A DNA stretch of 64,000 nucleotides from Xylanibacter ruminicola (lineage in GTDB: Bacteria; Bacteroidota; Bacteroidia; Bacteroidales; Bacteroidaceae): contig SUYC01000004.1 in the NCBI GenBank assembly GCA_015060625.1, forward strand, positions 62,001 to 126,000. Direction: 5' to 3'. Below are positions 55,533 to 59,900 of the stretch, piece by piece. Every line of letters begins with the position of its first letter. Position 1 is the stretch's first letter. Both the position numbers and the translations under genes were made by a program. A model generated the notes under the pieces. It was not told the DNA's origin. It was given only the letters and a program-made list of their open reading frames with translations, and made no database searches.

Positions 55533-56486
55533 TCAGAGATTATAAACTGATGCCATTTCTTTTATCCACCGGATTACTTCCTTTCGTACATGTTCTGGCG
55601 ATATCACTTCAACCTCGCTACTCATCGACAGAATATGCTGAATAAAATCGTAGGTGGGCATTACTGTCACTTCAAAGATTGAGTAGTCGCTATGCTTTTC
55701 CACCTCACGTTGCGACCAGTGTATCGGCAGTTTTCGCAGATAGTCGCGCCTGTGGTTAATGTCGGTAGCCTTTATTCGAATACGCTCTGCTTTATGCACT
55801 TCGGGTTCAACTATGATGCCATAGGCGTCAGCAAAGTAGGAGTCTACCGAAAGCCCACGTGGCATCTTGAATGTGTCCTCTGTGGCAAAAATCCGATGTA
55901 CCCTGTCAAGCGCATAGCGTCGGATACGCCCTTGCTTAGCACGTTCCTCAGGCTCTTCACCCTCAGGCGCATTAAGCATCACACCAACGACATACCATCT
56001 TTGCTGGAATACTCGTACAAAGTATGGCTCCAGCAATATCTCGCAAGGCTCATCATCAAAGAAATCCTGATAAAGGAGGTTTACTACCTGGTTTTTCTTC
56101 ATGCATTCCAATATCTTCAACAAATGCCCATTTCCATATTGAATCGTTTCGTACATCACCCTATCGCGCAGTCCTTTACTATCCTGCAATAGTCCGTTAA
56201 CGGCAAAAGCAGACAAAAGCCAATCCTTAACATTGTCTTTCTCTAACCACTCACGATTAACAATGCGATACCTGTACCCATTACGAGCATCAGACGATAT
56301 TTCGATATCAAAGGCATCCTCTATAGCACGTAGGCAATCAGCAAACGTTCGCTTAGGCAAGGTGGTCTTCAGCGTATTCAGTTCCGTACTCTCCCACTCA
56401 TAAGCAAACTCCTTATACGTCAATCCCTTGGGATTTTCGTATAGTTTTGATAATATCCAGATATGTCTGCGCAGGTAGTCCTTCAT
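55533..56486 (-). CDS. WYL-domain transcriptional regulator
   Basis: HTH-like N-domain, WYL core EPYFVRVFQQRWYVVGVM, WCX C-terminal domain. Confidence 0.88.
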   Translation of the reverse strand: MKDYLRRHIWILSKLYENPKGLTYKEFAYEWESTELNTLKTTLPKRTFADCLRAIEDAFDIEISSDARNGYRYRIVNREWLEKDNVKDWLLSAFAVNGLLQDSKGLRDRVMYETIQYGNGHLLKILECMKKNQVVNLLYQDFFDDEPCEILLEPYFVRVFQQRWYVVGVMLNAPEGEEPEERAKQGRIRRYALDRVHRIFATEDTFKMPRGLSVDSYFADAYGIIVEPEVHKAERIRIKATDINHRRDYLRKLPIHWSQREVEKHSDYSIFEVTVMPTYDFIQHILSMSSEVEVISPEHVRKEVIRWIKEMASVYNL

Positions 56487-56505
56487 ACAACGTCAAAATC
56501 CTTTT

Positions 56506-57081
56506 TTATTCATCCTCGTCGGCAACTTCCTTGCCGTTAATCAGCTTCAGCATCTTCGACACATACCCCTTGTGGGCATACAGTTGCTTAAAGCGATGCA
56601 CATTATTTGGCACGATTTCTATACGCCCATCGTCTGTTTCGTGGATAACAAGATCCAGCAGTCCGATAATATGCCCAGCCTTAGCGATGGTAATACCATA
56701 TTTAACAGCCAACGCCTTACGACCTATATAATAAGTAATGTCGCGAATACTCCTTGGGTTAATATCATCAAGACTAATGCCTGGATAGTTCTGACGAATA
56801 GCTGCAATCAGCCCATCCTTTTCTGGTAATCTTGCACTCACCCCTGGCCATGCAATAGCACTAAAATCCACATGCCCATTCTGCGCAGGCTGAGGCACTC
56901 GGCTCGAACCCATCCGAGCCAAGTCTGCCTTCATTCTGCTTACTACCTCAGGAGCCAATCGCTCCTCATCCAATTTCTTAATCAGATGTTCAGGCACTGG
57001 GTGCTCACATATCTCTTTCAGTGTCCTGCCCTCACCATTTATCCCTCCATTGCCAGAGGGAATATAATCATCAATACTCAT
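56506..57081 (-). CDS. uncharacterised protein, possible degenerate HNH/EndoVII-type motif
   Basis: 191 aa; LDLVIHETDDGRIEIVPNNVHRFKQLYAHKGYV resembles WHH-type HNH nuclease signatures. Confidence 0.4.
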   Translation of the reverse strand: MSIDDYIPSGNGGINGEGRTLKEICEHPVPEHLIKKLDEERLAPEVVSRMKADLARMGSSRVPQPAQNGHVDFSAIAWPGVSARLPEKDGLIAAIRQNYPGISLDDINPRSIRDITYYIGRKALAVKYGITIAKAGHIIGLLDLVIHETDDGRIEIVPNNVHRFKQLYAHKGYVSKMLKLINGKEVADEDE

Positions 57082-57105
57082 GTTCTTATCTTCACAATAT
57101 AATAA

Positions 57106-57513
57106 TCATGCTAGATACTCAGAAATATCAATATCATCATCTAGACCTAACCTTTGCTTCCACTCCATGTAATATTTTGTTTCATTTGGATGAATTACTC
57201 CGTCTGCTTCTATGACACCATTTATAAAATACGACAACGTTTTTAATAGAGGTTTTTTCTCTTCATATTCTACGGCTTCAAGCATTTTTTTAGTCTCATC
57301 AACAAGATAATCTATATCGATAGAGGTGCATAAAGATCTCTTAATCTGTAAAAGATCATCTAGTGGTATTTCTTGTTTCGACATTTCATTTATATATTTG
57401 TCAATAAACTCAGATTCGCGAACATCATATTCTCCATCGCAATTAGCGATGAAGCTTCCAAGCTCCATAACTAATTTAATAAGTTTTCTTTTTCTGGCCT
57501 CCATACTACTCAA
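57106..57513 (-). CDS. TerB-like domain protein
   Basis: SFIANCDGEYDVRESEFIDKYI and FINGVIEADGVIHPNETKYY, TerB-type DGxxxxxE repeats. Confidence 0.6.
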   Translation of the reverse strand: MSSMEARKRKLIKLVMELGSFIANCDGEYDVRESEFIDKYINEMSKQEIPLDDLLQIKRSLCTSIDIDYLVDETKKMLEAVEYEEKKPLLKTLSYFINGVIEADGVIHPNETKYYMEWKQRLGLDDDIDISEYLA

Positions 57514-58252
57514 ATATTAATTTGGTTTCAATCAAGATATCTTGCTTTTTAGATACTATTTGGTTATAGTTAGCACTCAATTTAAAAATGCTTGAAACTT
57601 TTAAAGAAAAGGCAATATCTAATTGACTATTTAGTTCCTTTGTTAAATTGAATCTTACATGTTGACTTGTTAACTGGTTCCCAAATTTCGGGTTCCTTGT
57701 CTTCAATAAATAATTAATATCGTCATCATCATATAATCCATTTTGTTTTGCTTCCAAGACAGCCTGATTATAAGAAGCCATGGAAAATTCGCCTCTGAAA
57801 GTTTCGTGTCTATAATACTTTCCTGTCATTGAGTCGTTCTCTTTAATTCGTACTGAACTTGCGGCATTTATTAGTTTATAATCCAGTTCTCCATTTGCAT
57901 TAATAATCCGTTCTTTGCTCTCTGTTATTGCAAAGGTAGTCTCATACTCTTTTGCTCCAAGATAATGAGCAATAATACCTAAACTTTTAAATTTGGCTTT
58001 AGTAAGGACATCTTCTGTTGTTTCTAGAGGGATATATTTATTTGGTTTAAATGGATGTTTTATCAAAATAGTATCTAATACAGGTACTTTTTTCCCATCA
58101 AATATATCGACGCCCATCTCATAAATATCGTCAAGTGAAACTATTTGCACATTAGGGTTCAACTTGTTTGCAGTTTTCTCCCACATGTAATTTGTAGCAC
58201 GTTCTTCACTAGTAACATAAATGATGTCTCTTGTCAATTTGCAATTTTCCAT
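57506..58252 (-). CDS. hypothetical protein
   Basis: Intact 248-aa ORF overlapping its neighbours in operon arrangement; no recognised domain. Confidence 0.6.
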   Translation of the reverse strand: MENCKLTRDIIYVTSEERATNYMWEKTANKLNPNVQIVSLDDIYEMGVDIFDGKKVPVLDTILIKHPFKPNKYIPLETTEDVLTKAKFKSLGIIAHYLGAKEYETTFAITESKERIINANGELDYKLINAASSVRIKENDSMTGKYYRHETFRGEFSMASYNQAVLEAKQNGLYDDDDINYLLKTRNPKFGNQLTSQHVRFNLTKELNSQLDIAFSLKVSSIFKLSANYNQIVSKKQDILIETKLIFE

Positions 58253-58710
58253 ATAATCAATATTAATAGGGTTATACTTGATAAAATCCCACCATATATA
58301 AACTTATCCGAAAGATAAGGAAGTATTTTAAGCTCATTTTCAAAGCAATCACGCTTAATATTTGCTGCATAATTATTTAGAATCTGGCACGCTTCGTTAA
58401 TATCTGTCGATTTAGTATAAAAAAGGAATGGCATGTTCCTTCCAAGTTCGTCTTTCTCTTGAAAACAGGCTTTAATTAAAATTCCAGAAGAGTCTTTGGC
58501 AAATTTAAAGTTTTTAGATTTAATTATTCCATAATCTTTTAATTGTTCAATTAACCATACCCATTTGCCTTTTTCACCTGATTTCTTATTGATTAATCTT
58601 AATGCATCAGATGCAATTCCTGTGGACATCTCAGAATAAAATTCTCCATCGACAATAATAGAATTTTTCTGATTGGCAGATTCGTTTTGTGTATAAAGAA
58701 TATTTTCCAT
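58234..58710 (-). CDS. hypothetical protein with C-terminal TM helix
   Basis: 158 aa; FIYGGILSSITLLILIIWKIAN tail anchor. Confidence 0.6.
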   Translation of the reverse strand: MENILYTQNESANQKNSIIVDGEFYSEMSTGIASDALRLINKKSGEKGKWVWLIEQLKDYGIIKSKNFKFAKDSSGILIKACFQEKDELGRNMPFLFYTKSTDINEACQILNNYAANIKRDCFENELKILPYLSDKFIYGGILSSITLLILIIWKIAN

Positions 58711-58715
58711 ATTTT

Positions 58716-59423
58716 CTAACTAAATATTTTTCCCAACTTTTCCATTAGAACTTTTTTGTTTCTCATATCCTGCATAAAAAACCTACTAGGGATAAACAGG
58801 CGACTATAATCCTTTCCCATTACAGAATTCTTTATTGACGAATATGCTTTATTCCTTTCATCATCATTAGAGAACATATCTGCAAAAGTTGCGAAAACGT
58901 TTACAGTGCATTTACTTTCTAGCGAATGCCTATTAACAAACTCTAAACGAGATTGTGTTTGCTTCCTATAATTATCTTTGTTTAGGTAGTCATGTGCGTT
59001 GAAAAGAAAAAACACAATTTCATTACTATTTATCATGTCCTCATAATAGTCAAGAATTAGTTCTTCGCCTCCGCCAATATCTTTACCTCCTTCTATAGAA
59101 ACAACTCGGTTTCCAAGTACAATGTTAAATTTCTCATAATCTTCTTCGCCTATTGTTGCTGCGTAGTCCTTATAATCTTTGTTTCGAATATTTGCTAGGA
59201 ACTGCGTCTTTCCAGCACCTTTCATTCCAAGAACCGCTATGGTCTTACCTTTTTCTGGTTCTGGCTCACCACAAAACCAGCCTATAAGTGCACCTACCAC
59301 AAGAGCAGCACCGCCACCAGCAAGTGCTGCATATGCAATAATTGGAATAAACCACCATACAGCTTCTTGCTGTTGATAAACTGGAATAGTAATAGATTGT
59401 AATAATAAAATTGAATGATACAT
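58716..59423 (-). CDS. membrane-anchored P-loop GTPase-like protein
   Basis: N-terminal TM (IPIIAYAALAGGGAALVVGALIGWF); G1 AVLGMKGAGKTQFL; DxxG-like KDIGGG; G4 NKxD not evident. Confidence 0.75.
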   Translation of the reverse strand: MYHSILLLQSITIPVYQQQEAVWWFIPIIAYAALAGGGAALVVGALIGWFCGEPEPEKGKTIAVLGMKGAGKTQFLANIRNKDYKDYAATIGEEDYEKFNIVLGNRVVSIEGGKDIGGGEELILDYYEDMINSNEIVFFLFNAHDYLNKDNYRKQTQSRLEFVNRHSLESKCTVNVFATFADMFSNDDERNKAYSSIKNSVMGKDYSRLFIPSRFFMQDMRNKKVLMEKLGKIFS

Positions 59424-59432
59424 AATTATTAG

Positions 59433-59654
59433 TTATTTAATTTTTATTGCTTCCAAATACGCAGAGTTCAAGGCTCCTGCTTTCTTTAAATCGATACCAT
59501 ATACTCGCATAAAGGCATCGGCTACAGCCTGACCTCCATTGGCGGTAATAGGGTTGACAGCGGATACCGTCGCCACCTCAACACTCATGCCTGGTTCTAT
59601 CAGGATGCCATTGGTGAGTTTTCGAGCTCTTGTAGTTACTTTGAATAGTGCCAT
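59433..59654 (-). CDS. small conserved Bacteroidales protein (tentatively DUF6140-like)
   Basis: MALFKVTTRARKLTNGILIEPGMSVEVATVSAVNPITANGGQAVADAFMRVYGIDLKKAGALNSAYLEAIKIK; start M49 of the listed ORF. Confidence 0.6.
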   Translation of the reverse strand: MALFKVTTRARKLTNGILIEPGMSVEVATVSAVNPITANGGQAVADAFMRVYGIDLKKAGALNSAYLEAIKIK

Positions 59655-59696
59655 AAGCATTTTAACGTTTTTAGTTCCTTTGTAATTGAAAGCGCA

Positions 59697-59848
59697 GACC
59701 TCGTGTCGATATCCTACAACGGAGGTCCTGAGAAAACCTTGAAGGTGGAATATGACAGAAGTCCGCGCTATGGTAACGCGGAAACAACTGTACGACATTC
59801 CCCACCTTCACTTTCATGTCCCGCTTAAGCAGACAGGGAGTTCTCAGG
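59697..59848 (-). ncRNA. putative structured 5' leader RNA
   Basis: Nested complementary arms: CCTGAGAA/TTCTCAGG, GAAGGTGG/CCACCTTC, TCCGCG/CGCGGA, GACCTC/GAGGTC, between a promoter motif and the ATG at 59654. Confidence 0.55.
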
Positions 59849-59892
59849 TTCCCGTTTGGTGAGAATGAAGCACTTTGCTTCGCTTTATGTGG

Positions 59893-59900
59893 CAAAGGTA
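59893..59900 (-). promoter_or_regulatory. Bacteroidetes -7 element (TACCTTTG)
   Basis: TAnnTTTG upstream of the structured leader. Confidence 0.5.

Follow-up and report, generated by a model that had tools for sequence, protein, structure and literature searches.

The window, the whole 64,000-nt stretch of the Xylanibacter ruminicola genome analysed here, contains on its minus strand an operon led by the gene for a DUF6140 protein. Its genes are as follows.

59433..59654, minus strand: DUF6140 protein, 73 aa, the first gene, with its ATG at 59654, 33 nt after the leader RNA described below (PF19637, E 1.7e-33)
58716..59423, minus strand: cargo, GTPase-like P-loop protein of 235 aa with a GMKGAGKTQF motif, 47% identical to a homologue at locus L012, no match in Pfam
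57106..58710, minus strand: cargo, proteins of 158 aa and 248 aa and a TerB-like protein of 135 aa (TerB E 7e-4, below the curated cut-off)
55533..57081, minus strand: constant downstream flank, a 191-aa protein and a WYL regulator (WYL/WCX match)

The island (55533-59886, minus strand) resembles an exchangeable cargo slot, with the leader and DUF6140 at its 5' end and the 191-aa protein and WYL regulator at its 3' end. The 191-aa protein is kept behind differing cargo at loci L010, L011, and L012 (81-91% identical), the first of which also retains the WYL gene. The GTPase/TerB set is shared by the window and L012, while the slot holds a 732-aa protein in L010, proteins of 212 and 708 aa in L011, and TerB/GTPase proteins of 191 and 790 aa in L009. 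DUF6140 is approximately 60% identical across Bacteroidales, and its operons carry dynamin-like and MMR_HSR1 GTPases, TerB, Sel1, and zinc-ribbon proteins (L013-L061); they form an uncharacterised GTPase/TerB island family, possibly with a role in defence. PADLOC recognised only the WYL protein of the island. DUF6140 had one partial match among phages and none among plasmids or in IMG/VR, and no mention of it was found in the literature searched. Matches in MAGs labelled Lachnospiraceae or Erysipelotrichaceae (L012, L048, L049, L055) closely resemble Bacteroidales loci and probably reflect binning contamination. At one locus (L035 51-448, minus strand) DUF6140 and its leader lie approximately 2.5 kb from a tmRNA gene, a common integration site.

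Between the promoter box TACCTTTG and the DUF6140-led operon lies a leader RNA of approximately 199 nt, running on the minus strand from 59886 to 59688. The minus strand of this leader folds with a free energy of -74.9 kcal/mol (z = -3.76), a value equalled by 0/200 shuffles. Its parts are given in 5' to 3' order.

59893..59900, minus strand: promoter box TACCTTTG (Bacteroidales -7), reading 59900->59893, 6 nt upstream of the RNA
59688..59886, minus strand: the leader RNA (199 nt), a window-type member of the family (model R2 self match, E 3.6e-68)
59867..59881, minus strand: 5' hairpin hp0, GAAGCA-AAG-TGCTTC; 91.6% of cells paired in alignment A8 and 94.7%, with two-sided changes, in A6
59851..59857, minus strand: helix A 5' strand, AAACGGG, partner 59717-59723; two-sided compensatory change in 7/7 pairs, among the top mutual-information pairs
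59849..59850, minus strand: AA of the internal loop, without variation among the 18 aligned core sequences
59841..59848, minus strand: helix B 5' strand, CCTGAGAA, partner 59727-59734; 100% paired
59802..59809, minus strand: helix C 5' strand, GAAGGTGG, partner 59741-59748; two-sided change in 8/8 pairs in A8
59777..59782, minus strand: D5, the TCCGCG arm of an alternative local hairpin with F5; z<-2 in 14/17 members of the window subtype
59754..59768, minus strand: F5/G5, 5' strand of the pseudoknot stem, GCGCGGACTTCTGTC, partner 59692-59707; duplex -26.9 kcal/mol
59741..59748, minus strand: helix C 3' strand, CCACCTTC; A8 covariation as for its 5' strand
59727..59734, minus strand: helix B 3' strand, TTCTCAGG; covariation as for its 5' strand
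59724..59726, minus strand: conserved RCC of the internal loop (ACC in the window); R-C-Y in 18/18 core sequences
59717..59723, minus strand: helix A 3' strand, TCCGTTG; covariation as for its 5' strand
59692..59707, minus strand: G3/F3, 3' strand of the pseudoknot stem, GACACGAGGTCTGCGC, then a weak U-tract (TTT); supported by the F/G swap test

The original prediction had described four pairs of nested or adjoining perfect arms, and all eight arms lie on the forward strand where it had placed them (CCTGAGAA at 59727 with TTCTCAGG at 59841, GAAGGTGG at 59741 with CCACCTTC at 59802, TCCGCG at 59762 with CGCGGA at 59777, and GACCTC at 59697 with GAGGTC at 59722). Among homologues, the first two pairs proved to be the conserved helices B and C. 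The third is conserved too, although as an alternative D hairpin whose 3' arm doubles as a pseudoknot strand, and the fourth, proposed as a side stem, falls outside the conserved model, as it would pair the invariant loop and the 3' strand of helix A with the 3' pseudoknot strand. Three elements had gone unremarked: helix A, the AA/ACC internal loop, which is invariant, and the pseudoknot of approximately 15 bp (GCGCGGACTTCTGTC/GACACGAGGTCTGCGC).

The leader is present upstream of approximately 24 DUF6140 relatives fetched from genomes. Outside the closest relatives, sequence identity to the window leader is almost nil, yet the architecture of these DUF6140-locus leaders is the same: from 5' to 3', a hairpin, helix A, the AA/RCC internal loop, helices B and C, and a long F/G stem. 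The 5' strand of that stem is enclosed by the A-B-C loop, and the 3' strand comes after that of helix A, so that the stem forms a pseudoknot with A-B-C; it makes up the 3' end of the RNA and is usually followed by a U-tract. Helix B alone occurs as CCTAGG, CGTAGG, CTTCGC, TCTGGA, and ATCGCC across the family. Given that a MAFFT alignment of all leaders produced wrong helix registers, helices were placed sequence by sequence and then verified by swap tests whose windows had been set beforehand; since placement relied on complementarity, tests independent of complementarity (swap tests and mutual information) were added.

The original prediction had named a lack of covariation among homologues as its refutation; covariation was tested for and is present. 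In the concatenated core of 18 loci, 98.4% of cells were paired, compared with 53% after shuffling (0/500) and at most approximately 42% with slid partners, and two-sided compensatory changes occurred in 30/30 pairs, pseudoknot included. A 58-member alignment (model R1) displayed two-sided changes in 27/28 modelled pairs (0/500 shuffles); here the top 11 column pairs by mutual information all belonged to helices A and B, and one G-stem pair was recovered. Within the window subtype (22 distinct sequences, model R2), 95.8% of cells were paired, with two-sided change in 20/28 pairs (0/500). In the fixed-window tests, own partners were matched by swapped ones in 0/10000 trials each for A+B, C, and F/G, and again in 0/10000 for F/G within the window subtype. 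G-U cells outnumbered A-C cells (150 vs 32), which fits the strand assigned to the RNA.

The stretch of hairpins is a genuine RNA fold, conserved in evolution. That the hairpins arose by chance or serve at the DNA level, as a mobile palindrome or part of a protein-coding frame, is hardly credible: such an origin is contradicted by the three covariation alignments and by the bias of G-U over A-C, and no second DNA-level copy (direct repeat) of the leader was found in the window's genome. What speaks for it is a frame that stays open through the RNA in the window and its closest relatives. In most divergent members of the subtype this frame is closed, and one-base indels interrupt it between close relatives, so that a coding role is unlikely.

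Searches of Rfam 15 with the whole window, 20 DUF6140 loci, and 8 further loci returned no match to the leader RNA at either gathering or relaxed thresholds, and the copy at L099 matched nothing even at E<=1. The literature on structured RNAs, including surveys, yielded no description of the leader RNA; unnamed candidates from large microbiome screens could include fragments of it (PMC8040213). With E-values that are rough and a sampling centred on one genus, model R1 detected 149 copies in 45/60 genomes of the window's genus, with a maximum of 11 per genome, and had matches in 24/197 genomes across the order, spanning at least 20 genera; in 196 Bacteroidota genomes drawn from elsewhere in the phylum it had none (0/196). 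Model R2, which represents the window type, retrieved divergent copies with the A-AA-B...B'-ACC-A' core from 27/100 genus genomes (E<=1e-3). The window leader is one member of a large Bacteroidales RNA family that had not been catalogued before and appears to be absent from Rfam.

The setting of these copies is that of a leader. In 49/58 family members the 110 nt upstream contain a TAnnTTTG box, compared with 8% of random windows. Based on gene calls that are simple ORFs, the downstream gene is on the same strand in 56/57 copies, at a median gap of 71 nt and mostly lacking its own promoter box; a promoter-like box between RNA and gene was found in 6/56, and by eye in L035 and L042. These properties bear on whether the RNA could instead be a small RNA in its own right, equipped with a promoter and a terminator and situated 5' of operons by happenstance, as a 5'-derived sRNA would be. 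The promoter and U-tract that flank the RNA, together with the second promoter boxes before DUF6140 in L035 and L042, would suit such an RNA, but same-strand genes at approximately 71 nt, mostly without a box of their own, point to control in cis, and we regard the independent RNA as distinctly improbable. The original proposal of a folded regulatory RNA for the operon is strongly supported in the form of a conserved cis leader, given the covariation, the promoter box upstream, and the same-strand gene downstream. Its suggestion of an antitoxin-type RNA found no such backing: there is one leader per operon, the RNA is not repeated in tandem, no ToxN-like nuclease typical of type III toxin-antitoxin loci was found among the genes scanned, and the same RNA heads capsule, restriction-modification (R-M), and surface-protein operons. 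Reverse transcriptases, as would accompany a retron or DRT ncRNA, were likewise not found among the operon genes scanned.

The copies stand ahead of many unrelated accessory operons. These include capsule operons, BREX (BrxC/DUF6079), and type III and other R-M genes, in addition to SNF2/HKD helicases, FHA/kinase genes, caspase-like proteases, BspA-type LRR proteins, Sel1 proteins, and CsgG-like and ketoacyl-synthase (fatty-acid synthesis) operons. At loci whose first gene is not DUF6140 (L004, L025, L032, L033, L039), the RNA precedes that other gene; the RNA therefore marks the operon, not DUF6140. This is relevant to the idea that a protein partner, DUF6140 or another factor, binds the pseudoknot and either controls readthrough or forms a stable RNP with it. 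DUF6140 is small, its gene lies directly behind the RNA in approximately 20 loci, and its AF2 model (pLDDT 85, a confident but orphan fold) weakly resembles archaeal ribosomal protein LX (eL20), which accounts for several of the top Foldseek matches in the PDB. However, the best of these is non-significant (E 1.7, TM 0.53), and an RNA-binding role for DUF6140 would be a guess from the model. DUF6140 occurs in 5/60 relatives (36 of the same genus), compared with the RNA in 45/60 genus genomes, and the window's genome has one DUF6140 gene but three further RNA copies. We consider control through such a partner improbable. As most RNA copies lack a DUF6140 gene, the protein was rejected as a universal factor and can be at most a locus-specific partner.

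NusG paralogues were considered in the same capacity. Of the three further copies in the window's genome, two stand before capsule/exopolysaccharide operons that begin with a NusG/UpxY-like gene, identified in one case by Pfam and in the other by eye. Overall, a NusG paralogue directly follows an R1 copy in 5/149 cases, and in L068 by eye, while 40/45 NusG-paralogue matches are not directly behind an R1 copy and NusG paralogues also occur in genomes without the RNA. They were dropped as a universal factor, and no common trans-acting factor for the RNA copies was found.

In the window subtype, strand F5 has two conserved partners, the local D5 and the distal F3, and since both require F5, the two folds are mutually exclusive. 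The D5:F5 hairpin is supported in this subtype by its stability (z -2.85) and by the swap test (3/10000); in the larger subtype the competition is weak (z<-2 in 10/58), and as a family-wide trait it was rejected. Strand exchange is therefore best supported for the window subtype. F3 pairs with F5 over a long range (mean z -2.7, with 47/58 below -2), compared with a mean z of -0.75 for local pairing, so that a local terminator hairpin built on F3 was rejected and the long-range stem preferred. The RNA is followed by a run of four or more U in 54/58 members of the larger subtype and 3/17 of the window subtype. Judged from sequence, termination is well supported as a prediction for the larger subtype; for the window copy it is doubtful, since neither this copy nor most others of its subtype have a strong U-tract.

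Taken with the genomic setting, these features make it on balance probable that the leader is a cis-acting, bistable 5' attenuator or antitermination RNA. As RNA polymerase advances, the local D5:F5 hairpin would form first; closure of A-B-C and emergence of F3/G3 would then allow F3 to oust D5 and complete the pseudoknot stem at the 3' end. The completed stem, which a U-tract adjoins in most members, may act as a terminator, and a factor or signal favouring one of the two folds would decide whether the polymerase enters the operon, that is, between termination or pausing and readthrough. The mutual exclusion of D5, F5, and F3 renders this mechanism directly testable by mutants.

A bistable design with a pseudoknotted platform ending in a U-tract is also what would be expected of a metabolite or second-messenger riboswitch, in which a small ligand would be bound by the A-B-C/pseudoknot core, with the F/G stem as expression platform. 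The invariant unpaired AA/RCC, a conserved GCAA-type motif in the larger subtype, and the ability of a global signal to account for diverse targets are in keeping with this, and known riboswitch platforms share with the leader the two mutually exclusive helices, the pseudoknot, and the 3' U-tract. Family-wide, however, few unpaired nucleotides are invariant (AA and RCC only in the 18-sequence core), no Rfam riboswitch matched, and the leader RNA differs from riboswitches in having neither a known ligand nor a pathway-coherent regulon. Coherence with one metabolite was not observed, as capsule, BREX, R-M, LRR surface proteins, kinases, and fatty-acid synthesis share no common pathway. We judge a riboswitch unlikely, although the "riboswitch-like" label originally applied fits the two mutually exclusive folds. 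Targets this diverse speak against a riboswitch tied to one pathway and for elongation control of long accessory operons; a further point for the latter is that 5/45 NusG-paralogue matches lie directly behind an R1 copy. The attenuator/antitermination reading is thus preferred in the form of regulated readthrough of long, horizontally acquired operons, which would resemble control by ops/RfaH, UpxY leaders, or EAR. It is possible, and we propose it tentatively, that Bacteroidales possess a dedicated RNA elongation-control element, a pseudoknotted leader that would license or switch unrelated, horizontally acquired operons for defence, capsule, and surface proteins via one common signal or machinery, as an order-wide counterpart of RfaH/ops or EAR.

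The JUMPstart/ops element acts with RfaH and marks long operons, many of them acquired. JUMPstart (RF01707)/ops-RfaH differs from the leader RNA in phylum, sequence, and structure, and Rfam returned no match to it. The JUMPstart motif is listed in the same source as the epsC motif, a structured RNA in exopolysaccharide operon leaders (PMC2864571). The epsC/EAR RNA (RF01735, processive antitermination, Bacillales, again another phylum) is likewise a structured RNA in an operon leader, but the leader RNA does not match it in Rfam, has at its 3' end a pseudoknotted stem with, in most cases, a U-tract behind it, and serves targets that reach well past exopolysaccharide. LoaP relies on a small hairpin together with an intrinsic terminator (PMC12691694); the LoaP-dfn leaders of Bacillus resemble the leader RNA in that a structured RNA with an intrinsic terminator heads long, costly operons, although the LoaP element is a small UNCG hairpin and the leader RNA a pseudoknotted structure of approximately 200 nt. 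UpxY proteins are reported to keep transcription of B. fragilis capsule operons from terminating prematurely within the 5' leader (PMC7819879). Those leaders share with the leader RNA the order Bacteroidales and a position between promoter and first gene, and two of the copies carried by the window's genome stand before NusG-like genes and capsule/EPS operons; the difference is that most copies head operons without a NusG paralogue. No structured-RNA description of UpxY leaders was found in the literature searched. The leader RNA is none of the UpxY leaders, LoaP-dfn, epsC/EAR, or JUMPstart.

The leader RNA heads defence, capsule, and surface operons in many gut and rumen genera of Bacteroidales. 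If elongation control holds, it would offer one testable handle on the expression or silencing of many costly accessory operons, and would account for highly folded leaders that annotators skip or misread as small ORFs.

Some loci (L116, L125) carry two RNA copies on one strand, separated by approximately 1.6-2.5 kb, which would suit a separate leader for each successive gene set. The leader RNA is also present on two IMG/VR contigs labelled viral (L160 11427-11698 and L173 1653-1926), and may therefore travel with prophages or mobile elements.
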